From positions 1-20,228 of IMG/VR virus record IMGVR_UViG_3300023284_000081: 20,228 nucleotides of DNA, one strand, 5' to 3'. Shown here in pieces: positions 6,610 to 19,786 of the stretch. This stretch comes from a virus. Positions within the stretch are counted from its first letter, which is position 1, and every line of letters starts with the position of its first letter. Position numbers and translations under genes: made by a program. The notes under the pieces were generated by a model. That model made no database searches. It had not been told where the DNA came from and saw only the letters and a program-made list of their open reading frames with translations.

Positions 6610-7965
6610 TTATCCTCGCGATGTTCTCGTTATATTCCTAGCCAATGGTCTGGCAAGGCTTCGTGAAAATGAAAGTGCTGTCTCGCTAATTAATCCATTA
6701 CTCAAGTTTTTAAGGAATTGATCGTCTTTGCGGACATTATAGTACCGTATTGAACGCATATGGCCATTAATGTGTCCGGCGTTAGTATTGGAGGACAGTC
6801 TCAGCGTGGTTAGACCCTGCGGAGTTGATCTGCTGGTGTTGGTGATTATCGGACGTCCGTTAGAACTTGTGCTGAAGGTAGTCGTGGCGTTGTCCCACGA
6901 GGTTGCCTGTATTAGTATCTCACCCTTCTGCGTATTAACACCATCGTCATTCAGTTGCGTAGCATTCACGAACAGGTGGGTGTCCCACTCGTCGGGCTGT
7001 TGTTTGAGATTATGAAGGATTCGACTAGTCGTCAGGCCGTTGTCAATCGCAATGATGAATGGCGTAGTTGGTGATGTCTTAGAGACTTTCGGGATGCGTA
7101 TCTCGGTAACGAGTGCGCCCTGCGTAGTGTTGATCCAACTCATATCCGTTGTAAAGATGTTCTCGGCTACCCGTTGCATAGCAATACTGGTAGTAGGGAT
7201 ATATGTTGTGGGAGTCGAGAAGCCTATTTCTAGTTGTGCTCCCCAAGAATGCGATGATCCCGTCGTAGACATGACATCAATGAAAGAACCGTGCGCTGCG
7301 GTGGCGGGTAGAACCTTGAATTGTATTCCGATGTTACCTGTACTGTTGTTCTGAGCGCGACACCATATACGCCAGTACTCGCCGTAGTCTTCAGCTTGGA
7401 ACGTGTCGTGTCCTACGCCGTTCGTCTCTCCGGTGTCTGTATTCAGACGCGGTGCGATGGGCTGCGGTACTGTGCCACCAAAGAAACTCAACTCGAACCC
7501 GAAGGTAGGAGATGTGCCGCCAGTAGTCTTCTTGACAAAGATACTGCCAGCGTGCCAACCATTGTCGTTTGGTACGGTAATAGACTGTTGTACACCTTCA
7601 CGGTTAGTCGCGTTGTTGTCCGAGAGTAGTGTAACATTAAGATCACCCTCAGGACTGATAGCGCTATTCGCAACAATGCCGGGAGTCTGTATGCTAGTCC
7701 AAGGGGCAGAGAACAGGTTACCGCTCTGTCTGCAATTATTGAACCGCTGTTCCTCGACTAGCAGACCTAAACACTTTCCTGTGGCGGGATCGTGGTCAAA
7801 TCGCGGTGCATTGGCAACTAATCCTCCTACCATAAGGCCACTAGCATCGCGATACCTTCCACCTGATGCGCGGAAGATGGTAAGCGTTGGCCCAAGACCC
7901 TGAGACGCTACAAGACTCTTATTGCGTGCAAAATCATAGAAAAGTGCAAGATTAGGATCAGCCAC
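6610..7965 (-). CDS. Fibre/head-spike-type appendage protein, second of a tandem pair
   Basis: A 451-residue virion appendage protein. It has the signature common in phage head-spike-fibre and lectin-like fibre proteins: RFDHDP at 55-60 followed by GLLVEEQ at 67-73, then APW and a beta-rich body with YWRIW and YIPT. The C-terminal third looks like a concanavalin A/LamG-type sandwich ending in IRYYN. It is a paralogue of the upstream gene, sharing the first eight residues (MADPNLAL), FTTDMSW and the C-terminal block DQFL-x2-LSNGLI to SLARPLARN. The start is GTG with AAGGG seven bases upstream. Receptor or glycan binding is inferred from the family. Confidence 0.75.
   Translation of the reverse strand: MADPNLALFYDFARNKSLVASQGLGPTLTIFRASGGRYRDASGLMVGGLVANAPRFDHDPATGKCLGLLVEEQRFNNCRQSGNLFSAPWTSIQTPGIVANSAISPEGDLNVTLLSDNNATNREGVQQSITVPNDNGWHAGSIFVKKTTGGTSPTFGFELSFFGGTVPQPIAPRLNTDTGETNGVGHDTFQAEDYGEYWRIWCRAQNNSTGNIGIQFKVLPATAAHGSFIDVMSTTGSSHSWGAQLEIGFSTPTTYIPTTSIAMQRVAENIFTTDMSWINTTQGALVTEIRIPKVSKTSPTTPFIIAIDNGLTTSRILHNLKQQPDEWDTHLFVNATQLNDDGVNTQKGEILIQATSWDNATTTFSTSSNGRPIITNTSRSTPQGLTTLRLSSNTNAGHINGHMRSIRYYNVRKDDQFLKNLSNGLISETALSFSRSLARPLARNITRTSRG
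6638..6664. repeat. 27-base exact repeat in the 3' ends of the two fibre genes
   Basis: The second copy is at 8000-8026. It encodes the shared C-terminal RSLARPLARN-type segment and lies in a longer stretch of similarity that continues through codons for LSNGLI. Identity at base level far exceeds that of the gene bodies, suggesting recent duplication or gene conversion of the ends. Confidence 0.85.
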
Positions 7966-7977
7966 TAAAATGCCCTT

Positions 7978-9363
7978 TCAGAATGTTCTTGATAGATTTC
8001 TAGCCAATGGTCTGGCAAGGCTTCGTCTAAAAGTTAAGCTGTTACCTTCGTTAATTAATCCATTACTCAGGTCTTGCAGGAATTGATCCGGCTTGCTTGC
8101 GTTGTAGTAGCGTATCTCCTGCATGAGCCCAAAGAGAGCATTACCCGCACCGACCGTGTTGCCGATGTGTAGCGTAGTCATGTTTCCGAACGCTGGATAT
8201 GCTGCGCCCGTGACCGTACCCTCAACTAAAACATCAAATGCTGCGAGATTGGTACCGTTGACCATCACTCTTTGGTCGCCATCTTTAAGTGTAAAGGCTG
8301 CCCTGTTAATACCCCGAAAGCCAGGTGTAGTTCCGATGTCATCATTAAGGGTTGTAGCACCTACGGTGAATCCCACACTTCCCCCAAACACCATCTCCAT
8401 CTCTATGACGTCACCATTAGTGCCATCACTTATCTGCATTAGAGCCTGATCGCCCGGCGGAGCATCATGGAGCCACTGTGCGTATAATGTATGCACGTCG
8501 CCTGTAAGCCAAGACATATCCGTTGTAAATGCATCATCTACACCACGTGTTACTGGTACTGTGGTCGTTGGGATGTAGCTTGATGTGCTAGCAATGGCGC
8601 CGCTCGGAAGAGTAACCTGCATGCCCCACACGACTGCGATGCCCGCTGCTGCGACATCTTGTACGGGATCATCACCGGACGTCAAGGGGTCGTGCGCTGA
8701 CCACGCTGGGAATACCTTAATCACTAGATTGGTGTTGGTGCTGCTGTTGACAGCAATCCCCATGAGCCGCCAATAGTCTCCCTGATCCTGAACACCCTGA
8801 TTAGCCGTACCGTCTGTTTCACCAGTGTCAGTGTTGAGCCACCATGTACTTACAATACCTGCAACACCCCCTGTGTACTGTGTCTGTAGCGCAAAGGTAG
8901 GGGCTGTGCCGCCGAATGTCTTCTTGACATAGATACTGATAGCACGGAAATTAGTGTCACTAGCGACCGTTATGATCTGTTGGACGCCCTCTGTGACCGT
9001 GGCGGAGTTGTCCGTAAGGAGGGTAGCCTCTACTAGTCCTGTAGGACTCGCTGTGCTGTTGGTCTCAAGACCCGGTGTGCCAATACTGGTCCACGGCGCA
9101 CTGACCATGTTGCCGCTCTGTAAAGCTATATTAGTCTCAGCCCTCTCCATGAGGAGGCCACGAACCGCCTTAGCTACGGGATTATGCTCGAAACGCGCAA
9201 CATCAACTGCTACGTTCTCGATAAGGCCCAGAGCATTGGTTCGAGTAGCCACACCAGAGCGGGTAAGCGTTAGTGGCGGTCCCGGCAACCGGGTCGTAGT
9301 CTCTGCATTGAGATCAGGCGTCTTAACGAAGTCATAGTGGAGAGCTAAATTCGGATCAGCCAC
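7978..9363 (-). CDS. Fibre/head-spike-type appendage protein, first of a tandem pair
   Basis: A 461-residue paralogue of the next gene. It carries the fibre signature RFEHNP (57-62) and GLLMERAETN (69-78), then APWTSIGTPG, FTTDMSWL and the C-terminal LSNGLI to SLARPLARN block. Between the shared ends the two proteins differ most in the last 150 residues before the tail, where binding specificity usually resides. The start is GTG preceded by GAGAGG eight bases away, in sequence context very similar to the start of the second copy, so the duplicated unit includes the ribosome binding site. Both copies look intact. Confidence 0.75.
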   Translation of the reverse strand: MADPNLALHYDFVKTPDLNAETTTRLPGPPLTLTRSGVATRTNALGLIENVAVDVARFEHNPVAKAVRGLLMERAETNIALQSGNMVSAPWTSIGTPGLETNSTASPTGLVEATLLTDNSATVTEGVQQIITVASDTNFRAISIYVKKTFGGTAPTFALQTQYTGGVAGIVSTWWLNTDTGETDGTANQGVQDQGDYWRLMGIAVNSSTNTNLVIKVFPAWSAHDPLTSGDDPVQDVAAAGIAVVWGMQVTLPSGAIASTSSYIPTTTVPVTRGVDDAFTTDMSWLTGDVHTLYAQWLHDAPPGDQALMQISDGTNGDVIEMEMVFGGSVGFTVGATTLNDDIGTTPGFRGINRAAFTLKDGDQRVMVNGTNLAAFDVLVEGTVTGAAYPAFGNMTTLHIGNTVGAGNALFGLMQEIRYYNASKPDQFLQDLSNGLINEGNSLTFRRSLARPLARNLSRTF

Positions 9364-15774: not shown

Positions 15775-16014
15775 TCATGTTCCTATCGTTTGCTGCAGTT
15801 CTTGTGATCGACCCCAGAGGGCCAATAATTCATCGCGACCATCTGGACGACGTTCTTTCACGTGTGGTTTCAACCAATCCGAAACCGTAGACTTGCCACA
15901 TGGCCCAATCTTTTCCGTAATGATTGCCGCTATGCGAGCGTGTGACAGACCTTCCTCCCTAAACTCAAACGCCATCAAAACCATTTCATCTTTTCTTGGA
16001 TGTGATCTTTTCAT
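15775..16014 (-). CDS. Helix-turn-helix DNA-binding protein
   Basis: Likely a small regulator or DNA-binding accessory. From MKRSHPRKDEMVLMAF, residues about 8-45 form a plausible helix-turn-helix: FEFREEGLSHARIAAIITEK followed by CGKSTVSDWLKPHV, where the second helix has the Ser/Thr-rich recognition look. I chose ATG 16014 because GAGG stands six bases upstream; a GTG at 16053 would extend it 13 residues into the previous gene with a poor ribosome binding site. The target is unknown. Confidence 0.65.
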   Translation of the reverse strand: MKRSHPRKDEMVLMAFEFREEGLSHARIAAIITEKIGPCGKSTVSDWLKPHVKERRPDGRDELLALWGRSQELQQTIGT

Positions 16015-16037
16015 GTCCTGCCTCAACAAGTCTAAAT

Positions 16038-16259
16038 CTAAGCGAGCCGCCACCAGGTAATTTCTGAACCGCTAATGTACAGACCTTTTCCCCCGTCTTG
16101 CCAGCCACACGGCTCCACCGGCACACCACAAACCTCACGGACGCACCTCTTGCCATATAGTTCTTGGGTGTACTCTTGATGAACGGTCTTCACATCGCAC
16201 AACTGGCCGTGTTCTGGGACTTCGTTTGCCAGTGAGCGCCAACCGACGCCTTTATCCAT
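16038..16259 (-). CDS. DUF551-like small protein
   Basis: Seventy-three residues. The layout WRSLANEVPEHGQLCDVKT near the start and ITWWRLA at the end resembles DUF551-type phage proteins (WR-x-PE-x-G, ending in a Trp-containing strand). Function of that family is unknown. ATG 16259 is preferred because GAGGACTGAGGAC precedes it; a GTG at 16274, sharing a base with the upstream TAG, would add five residues. Confidence 0.6.
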   Translation of the reverse strand: MDKGVGWRSLANEVPEHGQLCDVKTVHQEYTQELYGKRCVREVCGVPVEPCGWQDGGKGLYISGSEITWWRLA

Positions 16260-16513: not shown

Positions 16514-16668
16514 CCGATCTCCAGGCCACGCAAGGCATCTGCTATCTTGTCTGCTATTGCTTTGCTTTTGGTCAAAGCTACCTGATGATTTCCATATCTG
16601 GAATATATTGCGAATTTCCATCGGCCCTGTTGCATGACACCACGCACATCATATTTTTTCTCACTCAT
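16510..16668 (-). CDS. 52-residue hypothetical protein with overlaps on both sides
   Basis: Reads MSEKKYDVRGVMQQGRWKFA and ends ADKIADALRGLEIG. It shares ATGA junctions with the gene before it (16665-16668) and after it (16510-16513). CAGGAG lies eight bases upstream of the ATG. These exact overlaps make it a convincing gene despite its size. The fold looks like two strands and a helix; no family is recognised. Confidence 0.7.
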   Translation of the reverse strand: MSEKKYDVRGVMQQGRWKFAIYSRYGNHQVALTKSKAIADKIADALRGLEIG

Positions 16669-16829
16669 TTCTTATGCTCCTGTTTATCATCTTCCTCTAC
16701 AGGGTCACTGTATTTCGGATAAATCCTCTCAATCTCTGCTTTCGTCATTTTGCGCATGGGCATAAAATAATGGTCTATGTCAGCCACAAAGCCGTATAAG
16801 GGCTTTTTGTCTGGTTTCTTGTCATTCAT
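16665..16829 (-). CDS. 54-residue hypothetical charged protein
   Basis: Starts MNDKKPDKKPLYGFVADIDH and ends EEDDKQEHKK. GGAG six bases before ATG 16829 favours this start over an upstream in-frame ATG at 16868, which has no ribosome binding site. It is the first gene after the non-coding structured region. The last codons carry the ribosome binding site of the next gene, and this stretch is nearly identical to the junction at 15464-15485. Confidence 0.6.
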   Translation of the reverse strand: MNDKKPDKKPLYGFVADIDHYFMPMRKMTKAEIERIYPKYSDPVEEDDKQEHKK

Positions 16830-17080
16830 CCCCGTCTCCAAAATCATATAAATATAGTGTCTTTCCATACCAAGATCATAGACCCCTACTAAGAAAGGGG
16901 CCTTACGTGTTCCTTATGTCCATTGATACAAAACCAGCATGGTCTTTCTGCATTACGTTTGAGGGCAACCAACCTCTTGGGGTCTTTCTTAGTGCTGTTC
17001 AGTCGGGTCTAAAACCGTTGTATCTCTGCGATCTGACATTATTTGAGAGCACGTCACTGCTCGTTCGGGTTTGAGTTATA

Positions 17081-17207
17081 CAAATTGCTTTGAAGGTGGC
17101 TTCAGGATCAACCGGGTCCCGGCTTACATTCACCTTGGCTGCTTGGGGTTTGGTACCAAGACAATTATGCAAACCACACTTGCACAAGCCACCATCAAAA
17201 CAATCTG
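17081..17207 (-). ncRNA. Structured RNA element 2 (homologous to element 1)
   Basis: Arms at 17186-17207 and 17081-17102 form the same design as element 1: 13 bp, a single U-U mismatch where element 1 has its bulge, then 8 bp. The 8-bp part has different sequence yet pairs perfectly. Inner hairpins are TGCAA/TTGCA with a 7-base loop (17168-17184), CTTGG/CCAAG (17142-17160) and a CCGG/CCGG hairpin (17112-17122). It follows element 1 after a 5-base TATAA spacer and is followed by another TATAA (17076-17080). Confidence 0.65.
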
Positions 17208-17212
17208 TTATA

Positions 17213-17363
17213 CAAACTGCTTTAGTGAACGGCCCTCGGCTCATTATCGTTATGCCGAGCCTCGCCCGAATCGAACGGGCTTTAGGTTGCCTTCCGCGGA
17301 CTAGCACCTGTATTCCAACAATAGGCATGACGCACATGCTTAGGCCGTTCCTAAAACAGTCTG
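17213..17363 (-). ncRNA. Structured RNA element 1 (21-bp closing stem)
   Basis: The arms at 17343-17363 and 17213-17234 pair along 13 bp plus 8 bp with one bulged A; two of the 13 are G-U. Inside lie several hairpins: GCATG/CATGC at 17325-17339; a GC-rich arm GCCCG-TTCGATT-CGGGC at 17264-17280 that looks like a tRNA T-arm; a GGTGC/GCAACC arm at 17285-17308; and CTCGGC/GCCGAG at 17235-17259, stacked against the closing stem. TATAA flanks both ends exactly. Confidence 0.65.
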
Positions 17364-17381
17364 TTATACGGTCAGACCGAT

Positions 17382-17403
17382 AAAAACACCGCCAGAATGC
17401 GGT
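17382..17403 (-). terminator. Terminator-like hairpin inside the non-coding region
   Basis: Minus strand ACCGC-ATTCTG-GCGGT followed by GTTTTT. The stem is short (5 bp) but GC-rich and has a T-run, so it may stop or attenuate the transcript arriving from the early genes. It sits just upstream of the two large RNA elements. It could alternatively be one more structural hairpin of the same RNA. Confidence 0.45.
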
Positions 17404-17598
17404 TAGACTTGATTTCAAGAGCAGGGATAGTGATATAATCAACCTGCGCCTGGTTTCGAATCCACCGATTCCAGTACCAGTCCTTGTAAGACTGGTTAAA
17501 TCTGAGAGGCTGATTCCTGTAATGGGTTTCGGCCTCTCTTCTATCAAGAGTATGTTATTCATCATCCTCATTCAACTGTTCATTATCCGTGGATCTGT

Positions 17599-17910
17599 TT
17601 AGACAATGGATTTTCCCAATATATGGGGCCACTCCTCCTCTGTTGGCTTCCTTTCATCGCCGCAATCGATACAGGCCATTCGCGTGTATTCGCGAGGCAC
17701 TGTCATCGTTGCTTTCCATTTGTGATCTTCGCCGTTCAAGCAATCTGCTTTTTGTTCGTGGTAGACAAATAGAATCGATGTTCGGAAGATGTACAACTTC
17801 TCACACGAATGGCACTCAACCTCGTGGGGTCCGTCTTCCTCATAGCCGAAACCATCGTCATGACACACTTCCTGTGCGCTACCGCAATAGGGACATTCAA
17901 GATCACTCAT
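17599..17910 (-). CDS. Double zinc-ribbon phage protein
   Basis: A 103-residue protein of a small zinc-ribbon type seen in many phages. Two Cys pairs near the start, C6-x2-C9 and C33-x2-C36, flank the acidic HDDGFGYEEDGPHEVE. A second set comprises C57, H63, C80 and C83, within ADCLNGEDHKW and RMACIDCGDERKPTEEE. Function is unknown, perhaps protein-protein or nucleic-acid binding. Its ATG overlaps the stop of the preceding gene as ATGA. It is the last gene before the long non-coding region. Confidence 0.75.
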   Translation of the reverse strand: MSDLECPYCGSAQEVCHDDGFGYEEDGPHEVECHSCEKLYIFRTSILFVYHEQKADCLNGEDHKWKATMTVPREYTRMACIDCGDERKPTEEEWPHILGKSIV

Positions 17911-17945
17911 TGCTCTAATACCTTACTGTCTACAATAGCTTTGAT
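17903..17945. repeat. Gene-junction repeat B, 43 bases
   Basis: The second copy is at 18590-18632 with two mismatches. On the minus strand it encodes the IKAIV-x-SKVLEQ tail, its stop, and the ATGAGTGA start of the following gene. One copy ends a hypothetical gene, the other the HNH endonuclease. Confidence 0.9.
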
Positions 17946-18224
17946 AGCGCTCATAGTGCGGCCCAGTTTGAAACCACAGCCAAGTTCTGTCCCTTTGTTC
18001 TCAGTTGAAAATACTTGTACCCATTCATCGCGAAAGCTAATATAGATATTTGGTAAAGCATCCACCTGTCTCATAAGTTGAGCTGCGAGGGCGTCACGTA
18101 CCGGCTGAATTGCGTATGCGGGTGAGCATCGGTGAACACATGCTGCGTGGATATTTCCAGCCTTATTAATTTTCCATCCATCAGCCAGTTCTACTGCCTT
18201 AACTATATATTCTTTGTCATCCAT
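17907..18224 (-). CDS. Hypothetical protein with conserved ends, copy 1
   Basis: About 105 residues from MDDKEYIVKAVELADGW to AIVDSKVLEQ; family not recognised. It is a paralogue of 19102-19437: both start MDDK after an identical 36-base DNA segment and both end with an AIVDS-x-VLE-type tail. I chose ATG 18224 because GGAG lies eight bases upstream and this arrangement is conserved in both copies. An ATG at 18245 would add seven residues that are the read-through of the same repeat. The middle part of the two copies differs more, with shared IAAQ/LAAQ-x2-RQ-(I/V)D segments. Confidence 0.65.
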   Translation of the reverse strand: MDDKEYIVKAVELADGWKINKAGNIHAACVHRCSPAYAIQPVRDALAAQLMRQVDALPNIYISFRDEWVQVFSTENKGTELGCGFKLGRTMSAIKAIVDSKVLEQ

Positions 18225-18246
18225 TCTGTCTGCTCCGATATTCATT
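18211..18246. repeat. Gene-junction repeat C, 36 bases, identical copies
   Basis: The second copy is at 19424-19459. On the minus strand it carries GGAG and the ATG GAT GAC AAA start of the two paralogous genes. At the first site it follows the upstream stop; at the second it also encodes the last residues and stop of the upstream gene in another frame. Confidence 0.9.
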
Positions 18247-18487: not shown

Positions 18488-18597
18488 CATGACTCCGTTT
18501 TGCCTGGGACTAAAGCGCCAGCAATAAAAATCCCAATTAGCCCCAGAATGCCACCAGTGATCAACAGACCCCACACAGGAATACATACTTCACTCAT
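18487..18597 (-). CDS. 36-residue single-helix membrane peptide
   Basis: Reads MSEVCIPVWGLLITGGILGL and ends ALVPGKTES. Residues about 7-30 form one very hydrophobic transmembrane helix with several Gly. The ATG overlaps the TGA of the HNH gene (ATGA), and its TGA overlaps the start of the next gene, so it sits exactly in the operon. Small membrane peptides of this sort occur in phage early regions; role unknown. Confidence 0.7.
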   Translation of the reverse strand: MSEVCIPVWGLLITGGILGLIGIFIAGALVPGKTES

Positions 18598-19109
18598 TGC
18601 TCTAATACCTTACTGTATACAATAGCTTTAATGTGTTTCCAATTCTCACCACGTAATGCACCAGCTAAAGTCTTTACTGATACGCCAAAGCAACGAGCAA
18701 TATTAGCCACTGACTCGCCAGCCTTTTTTCGTTTGTGCGCTACCAACAATATTTCTTCTGTGAGAATCGCCCTGTAGTGGTCCTCTCCTTTGGCGATACG
18801 AGCACGACTTCTGTTTTCCTCAATAGGTATCCAACGGCAATTCTCGGGAAAGTAATCACAGTCTGGATCTATGCGATCTATCGACAAAGATGCATCAAAT
18901 CCGTTATGAATAGCCCATTCTCGAAACGCATCAAATGACTCTCTCCATTCCTGACACACGCCGATACCTTTTCCGCCGTAGCAATGGTATTTACTGTGGC
19001 CTTTATCCCTACACCGTCCATTCATTGAGGTCCATCGTGAATATAGGGGCGCTGTTTCAGTATCGGTGATGCTGTAATCTTTGTTGCTGTATTTATGCTG
19101 ATTACTCAC
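18594..19109 (-). CDS. HNH homing endonuclease with a captured C-terminal tail
   Basis: A 171-residue endonuclease of the phage HNH type: YSRWTSMNGRC at 23-33, the YGGKGIGVC-x-EW block at 44-55, and SIDRIDPDCDYFPENCRW at 76-93 containing the active-site-type Asp/Asn. A C-terminal helix-turn-helix (GESVANIARCFGVSVKTLAG) precedes the final tail KAIV-x-SKVLEQ. That tail is shared with the unrelated gene 17907-18224 at DNA level. Start GTG 19109 has GGAG nine bases upstream; a GTG at 19139 lacks one. The gene overlaps the upstream gene by eight bases. Confidence 0.85.
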   Translation of the reverse strand: MSNQHKYSNKDYSITDTETAPLYSRWTSMNGRCRDKGHSKYHCYGGKGIGVCQEWRESFDAFREWAIHNGFDASLSIDRIDPDCDYFPENCRWIPIEENRSRARIAKGEDHYRAILTEEILLVAHKRKKAGESVANIARCFGVSVKTLAGALRGENWKHIKAIVYSKVLEQ

Positions 19110-19437
19110 TTTCAAGAACTCCTGAATCAACAATTGCACGAATGCTGTTCATGGTGCGGTCTTCGTCATTTGCTTTTGCTATTCGCGCCATATCACCAAC
19201 ACTAAAAGCCGATCCAGACCAAACCTTTGCAGTTCCGTGTGGGTCAGAATCAACCCAAAAATTATCAAGCACATCAATCTGTCTCACAATCTGTGCTGCG
19301 ATGATGTCTTGCACCCATCCCCACGACAAATGAACTTGTTTCGGTATTCCATCTACTTCTGGATAGGTCCAATTATCAGAATCAACCTCCCAATCAATAA
19401 GCACCGCACCCTTGCGTATAACATCTTTGTCATCCAT
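19102..19437 (-). CDS. Hypothetical protein with conserved ends, copy 2
   Basis: About 111 residues from MDDKDVIRKGAVLIDWE to VDSGVLESE. Paralogue of 17907-18224, sharing the start repeat, an internal AAQ-(I/L)-(V/M)-RQ-(I/V)D segment and the tail type. The start ATG 19437 overlaps the TGA of the upstream gene by eight bases and has GGAG eight bases before it. Function unknown. The homing endonuclease lies immediately downstream, so this gene may be the left neighbour of an insertion. Confidence 0.65.
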   Translation of the reverse strand: MDDKDVIRKGAVLIDWEVDSDNWTYPEVDGIPKQVHLSWGWVQDIIAAQIVRQIDVLDNFWVDSDPHGTAKVWSGSAFSVGDMARIAKANDEDRTMNSIRAIVDSGVLESE

Positions 19438-19786
19438 TCTGTCTGCTCCGATATTCATTCATTTGGGCGATTGCTTTTCCGGCATCGATTTTTCTCTGTT
19501 CCTCACTGATCTGTTCCGGTCTGCGAGGCTTATAAGACAACTCCGGTATTTCGTAATCCTCGCCCCACCATTCATCTCTGCCGAAAAAAGTTCTGGCCTG
19601 TTTTACTAATTCGGTTCCTGTCTTGCCGGTGTGATCACACCACTTAGCATAGGACTTTGTACCTTCCAATATGTCCTCAAACAGAACACCACGGCTTATA
19701 TGGGCCTTTATCAGTCTTCTGGCAGCAACCCATCCCTGACCGCCTGATCGTTTGGGATAAGCTGATTCAATGGTTTCTGTGTCCAT
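19430..19786 (-). CDS. Replication-protein C-terminal-like domain protein
   Basis: Starts MDTETIESAYPKRSGGQGW. The pattern YPKR-x-GG-x2-W, then A-x2-LIKAHISRG, YAKWC-x3-GKTGTELVKQA and TFFGRDEWW is the C-terminal domain found on many phage replication initiators or helicase-loader proteins. Here it stands alone in 118 residues, without the usual N-terminal DNA-binding domain. The upstream gene ends in TAATG overlapping this start. The last residues (NEYRSRQNG) come from the junction repeat read in a second frame. Possible partner of replisome proteins encoded further right. Confidence 0.7.
   Translation of the reverse strand: MDTETIESAYPKRSGGQGWVAARRLIKAHISRGVLFEDILEGTKSYAKWCDHTGKTGTELVKQARTFFGRDEWWGEDYEIPELSYKPRRPEQISEEQRKIDAGKAIAQMNEYRSRQNG

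Follow-up and report, generated by a model that had tools for sequence, protein, structure and literature searches.

The closest described systems are of the IsrK-C4 type, in which a control RNA lies in a translated frame with no fixed protein sequence. In Gifsy-1, orf45 is conserved in its nucleotides and variable in its amino acids, it overlaps anrP as AUGA, and the production of AnrP needs both the short IsrK RNA and the translation of orf45 (PMC4825925). The seqA/CI system of P4 has been described as related (PMC4825925). In phage SfV, orf37 ('immunity region'; L186, 1048-1884, 278 aa) has both Rfam elements, isrK followed by C4, in one frame, and it can serve as a positive control where structured RNAs in open frames are sought.

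We analysed a virus record of 20,228 bp, hereafter the window (the whole stretch of DNA under analysis), in which scaffold, portal, large terminase, tail-protein, HNH and NinB/Orf genes all lie on the minus strand. A preliminary description had proposed two adjacent minus-strand elements with long closing stems, and these are present essentially as it described them. It had placed them in a gap between genes, but they sit in a 190-aa open frame on the same strand (16999-17571, minus strand), which is found between two small genes, spans three hairpins (I-III) and the two elements (modules A and B), and has in-frame ATGs at 17571, 17565 and 17562.

Relatives were reached via a terminase search. 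The DNA of the locus was recognisable in three phages (G005, G041 and G013), and in two more (G014 and G008) it was found by a scan for long stems together with a search for the arm motif in related records, so that five related phages carry the locus besides the window. We considered the window a homologue of the relatives' locus because its hairpin I was the best match of a covariance model of this hairpin built without the window (R2; E = 0.0027) and because one of its arms matched G005 with E = 1.8e-6. A collection of 50,697 phage records yielded no relatives by blastn or tblastn; pattern searches for the 5' domain and the 3' domain gave none in 84,980 genomes and, in IMG/VR, the same few contigs only. 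Model R1, run over 50 related records, added no member, and a weak match in G010 was rejected. Two genome matches to the arm motif look like chance, and the viral-contig matches of the 17-mer repeat GTATAACAGAYTGTTTT belong mainly to an unrelated phage clade. G013 has, just upstream of its main locus, a short additional version (L136, 3306-3145, minus strand): hairpins I and II and the 3' arm phrase AAAGCAGTTTGTGTAACTCAA lie there in a separate open frame of 53 aa, which overlaps the next gene.

The 190-aa frame has 0 internal stops, against 19 and 12 in the remaining sense frames of the window. Homologous open frames were found in the five other phages: over seven copies of 53-282 codons there were 0 internal stops where shuffles expect 3-14, and the other sense frames of the same copies held 2-22 stops each (7-40 for both together). 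Each of the seven modules has a span divisible by 3 (153, 129, 108, 168 and 162 nt, plus 138 nt for the G014 A module and 183 nt for that of G008, both taken to the same boundary). The start of the frame overlaps the stop of the preceding gene, as ATGA in G041, G013 and G005 and as TGATG in G014, and its stop overlaps the start of the following gene as ATGA in G041 and G008, though not in the window.

Since the genes downstream of the locus vary between phages, none stands out as a common target of regulation. The locus is followed in G014 and G008 by a gene for a T5orf172/MUG113 (GIY-YIG-like) protein (L143, 7126-7557, and L150, 15493-15903, both minus strand). A 67-aa ORF of the window (16665-16868) was considered as a possible remnant of such a gene on account of a similar start (MERHYIYMILETG), and the similarity was judged too weak to claim. 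As regards the other genes of the window, the one preceding the element (17599-17910, minus strand) matches Lar-like restriction alleviation proteins, though below threshold. The genes at 17907-18245 and 19102-19458 (minus strand) have the N-terminus MNIGADRMDDK in common, and the end of the HNH gene (18594-19139; ..KAIVYSKVLEQ) resembles that of the 17907-18245 gene (..KAIVDSKVLEQ); as judged from these sequences, the small genes flanking the HNH gene are a partial duplication around it. Two adjacent tail-protein genes (6610-7965 and 7978-9363, minus strand) match the same region of the phrog_5939 profile, a tandem duplication.

Module A (17212-17364, minus strand) consists of a 14-bp stem, a bulged A, an 8-bp stem and a 108-nt interior; its arms ACAGACUGUUUUAG and GAACGGCC pair with GGCCGUUC and CUAAAGCAGUUUGU, between which the bulged A lies. 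Module B (17080-17208, minus strand) consists of a 14-bp stem, a U.U mismatch, an 8-bp stem and an 83-nt interior, and here ACAGAUUGUUUUGA and GGUGGCUU, separated by the mismatch, pair with AAGCCACC and UCAAAGCAAUUUGU. The layout had been given as 13 bp, an irregularity and 8 bp; the single irregularity and the 8-bp part stand, while the outer part is in fact 14 bp long. Within this part all the differences between A and B compensate, with exactly the exchanges claimed (C-G/U-A, A-U/G-C and G-C/A-U), and the two G.U pairs common to both stems were also found again. The 8-bp parts, as stated before, are unlike in sequence between the modules and pair perfectly in each.

The fold of the 321-nt region was more stable than expected (z = -6.1), and none of 100 shuffles was equally stable. 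Long stems of this type occurred at 0.02 per dinucleotide-shuffled window (maximum 1, 150 shuffles), and the same scan of the real window returned three, two of which are modules A and B. The third is a long imperfect stem at 15958-16042 (minus strand; 13 + 10 bp, span 85), rare by shuffles, inside a 92-aa ORF (15775-16053). Module A also holds a T-arm-like hairpin read from the sequence (17264-17280, minus strand; GCCCG UUCGAUU CGGGC) that the other modules do not have; a tRNA reading of it was dropped, there being no tRNA in the window.

Hairpin I (17504-17538, minus strand) has a 7-bp stem, an internal loop, 2-3 further bp and a 7-nt loop. In a MAFFT alignment of the whole sequences of four phages, with the structure itself specified by the analyst, 7 of its 10 pairs were altered on both sides, as in none of 500 shuffles; by sequence alone hairpin I was not significant. 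Hairpin II (17476-17496, minus strand) reads ACCAGUC..GACUGGU in the window and CUGGNN..NNCCAG in the relatives, and in a hand alignment of seven copies all 6 of its pairs showed changes on both sides. Hairpin III (17380-17403, minus strand; ACCGC AUUCUG GCGGU, then GUUUUUAU) came from a terminator scan and covariation; it is terminator-like in the window, where alone the U-run is clear, and this run is not kept in most relatives. Beyond the modules, a 3' hairpin (16881-16902, minus strand; GGCCCC..GGGGUC) contains AGGGG 3 nt ahead of the ATG of an 11-aa ORF (16844-16879, minus strand), which overlaps the start of the 67-aa ORF. Analogous 3' hairpins with GGGGGA before an ATG are present in G005, G041 and G013, hence in four phages in all such a hairpin carries a Shine-Dalgarno (SD)-like run shortly before an ATG. 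The frames of the window and of G005 terminate ahead of the SD in this hairpin, and in these two there is accordingly no sign of direct stop-start coupling.

The preliminary description held that the covariation was real for a minus-strand RNA, on the strength of two copies, and it is now seen over seven modules. Precisely, 15 of the 21 stem pairs of the A/B type change on both sides and 95% of the cells are paired, against 29-54% in slid controls of the stem alignments, and for hairpins I and II pooled 14 of 15 pairs covary over seven copies. Both of these seven-copy alignments contain hand-chosen stem letters only, so pairing is favoured in them, and the shuffle counts are not to be taken as probabilities because the copies are related. 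Over all the hand-picked stems the non-Watson-Crick pairs of the sense strand were 27 G.U and 2 A.C, a ratio that fits an RNA of the minus strand, with the proviso that G.U pairs had been admitted when the stems were chosen.

The substitutions fell on the three codon positions as 17/14/21, and 77% of the codons with a single difference were nonsynonymous, about the expectation without protein selection, in a count in which 167 of 1008 aligned positions were read in a differing frame. The codon bias of the frame is weak or absent; it is weak but above zero in some copies, which leaves a protein role some small probability. Searches of the encoded protein against Pfam, PHROG and NCBIfam gave nothing above cut-off, and an NCBIfam Rv3212 match on the G005 ORF was disregarded (19 bits, cut-off 150). 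The mean AlphaFold pLDDT was 35, which is weak evidence given a thin alignment of six divergent rows. The RNA reading had originally been set against that of a conserved protein; the frame is conserved and the protein sequence is not. On this comparative evidence we conclude that the locus is maintained as a single open frame within an operon, that the same-strand RNA keeps a defined fold, in which hairpins I, II and III are followed by up to two long-stem modules, and that the encoded protein sequence is under no detectable constraint. An open frame, covarying stems and neutral amino-acid change together indicate that selection maintains the fold and the openness, not the protein sequence.

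The reading that we favour, tentatively and at somewhat less than an even chance, is that of a phage cistron which is structured, translated and built in the manner of IsrK-C4/orf45, with translation as its gate. We infer steps of coupling, gating and processing. Ribosomes from the preceding gene would traverse the frame and open the hairpins, and translational coupling would pass them on to the next gene. If translation failed or were prevented, the RNA would fold and the 3' hairpin would mask the next ribosome-binding site; the stems of about 22 bp could then become RNase III-type processing sites, and the modules could be released as small RNAs.

It is doubtful that the locus is instead a stand-alone structured non-coding RNA that belongs to a new class and is processed out of the operon transcript, with the open frame kept only as a ribosome shield against Rho-dependent termination. 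The strong covariation, the unconstrained protein and the unrelated downstream genes would suit it, but such an RNA would be unfolded by the translating ribosomes, the overlaps with the starts and stops of the neighbours are those of an ordinary cistron, and a scan of the window found no promoter of the element's own above background. Only slightly more doubtful is a new phage RNA device, namely a cistron of the operon whose translation would serve its RNA and which would carry interchangeable long-stem cassettes. Phages would exchange the interiors of these cassettes, the stems co-evolving, and stem cleavage might release the cassettes as RNAs with phage-specific targets.

We consider it unlikely that this is a true IsrK-C4 antisense immunity locus diverged beyond Rfam, whose long-stem module would base-pair, as an antisense RNA, with two targets, the leader and the ribosome-binding site of the next gene. 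The order of the parts is as in SfV, smaller hairpins are enclosed by a long closing stem, the frame overlaps the next gene, and in G008 a duplex is possible between CCACCCUU of the module and AGGGGUGG at the SD of the next gene. Against this, the C4 model (RF01695) had no match in the six phages (E <= 10), with 82 bits in the controls SfV and phage 2H10, and isrK (RF01394; 64 bits in SfV and 55 bits in 2H10) was absent from the cmscan listing for the loci of the six phages (E <= 5-10). The controls have module-SD helices of 14-15 bp, whereas in these phages the cognate helices were no better than the non-cognate ones and the SD-upstream duplexes no better than shuffles, the RNAduplex energies of long segments being uninformative. 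Neither a repressor nor an antirepressor was identified adjoining the locus.

Less likely again are mobile palindromic elements, of the Rickettsia palindromic element, ERIC/RU or MITE type, inserting in frame into a phage ORF. In their favour, the number and order of the modules vary: A-B in the window, B-A in G041, B in G005, A in G014 and G008, and none in G013. Moreover, at the site AACCAGC|GG a module-A block is present in G014, G008 and G041 and missing in G013 and G005. Elsewhere in G005 there are another two long-stem modules, separated by about 490 nt (L145, 7446-7295 and about 6960-6800, minus strand), with an identical stretch of 116 nt (the interior and the inner 3' arm) and outer arms that differ and are self-complementary in each, which looks like the copying of an interior from one stem to another. 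Copies of a mobile element would be expected to resemble one another, but between phages the seven module interiors have no evident homology; moreover, both arms change together, and no transposase was noticed adjoining the locus. Finally, an ordinary fast-evolving protein gene with palindromes by chance would account for an open frame in an operon, and is highly improbable in view of the neutral codon pattern with little codon bias, the compensated stem changes, the lack of Pfam, PHROG or NCBIfam matches above cut-off and the low pLDDT from a thin alignment.

If the translated, gated cistron that we favour is the right reading, the IsrK-C4 design would be in use beyond enterobacterial prophages. 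It would also be a warning that long open frames of phage operons can be maintained for RNA and not for protein, so that they would be misread by gene callers and by searches for non-coding RNAs alike. Exchange of stem interiors in a cassette-like manner can be put to a direct test.

As for known families, the first reading knew no named RNA with such a layout, and cmscan with all Rfam families over the loci of the six phages agreed, giving no match (E <= 5-10). The GOLLD or ROOL relationship then suggested was not supported: the locus is, like them, large, structured and phage-encoded, but Rfam gave no match, the window has no tRNA, and the region is an open frame, probably translated, without their long fixed multi-stem fold. 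With Rickettsia palindromic elements and the enterobacterial RU (ERIC) it shares palindromic units of about 100-170 nt lying in frame within ORFs; here, unlike there, the interiors are unrelated, the stems covary and there is no dispersed family of a single sequence. The Ash family (PF10554) is likewise a variable-length phage ORF over a structured control RNA, and gave no match in four of the phages (E <= 10). From isrK-C4 the locus differs in its tandem, reordered modules with unrelated interiors, in lying in different phages with no antirepressor identified, and in matching neither Rfam model and having no module-SD complementarity; where C4 has a closing stem of 17 bp, that of the locus has 14 + 8 bp and is interrupted by an irregularity. 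Since the layout is shared but the C4 and Ash models are unmatched and antisense complementarity is absent, we call the locus IsrK-C4-like and do not file it as a member. As in isrK and C4 of SfV orf37, phage 2H10 and the Gifsy-1 isrK-orf45-anrP locus, two hairpins, a terminator-like hairpin, here with a clear U-run in the window alone, and a long-stem domain follow in the same order; a single frame runs over all the parts and overlaps the start of the next gene in several members; nucleotides are conserved and amino acids variable, as in isrK-orf45; and, as in C4, a long closing stem surrounds smaller hairpins, the stem covarying here and the inner hairpins being predicted only. We regard the locus as a new variant of the IsrK-C4-type layout which, as far as its function can be inferred, probably gates the next gene.
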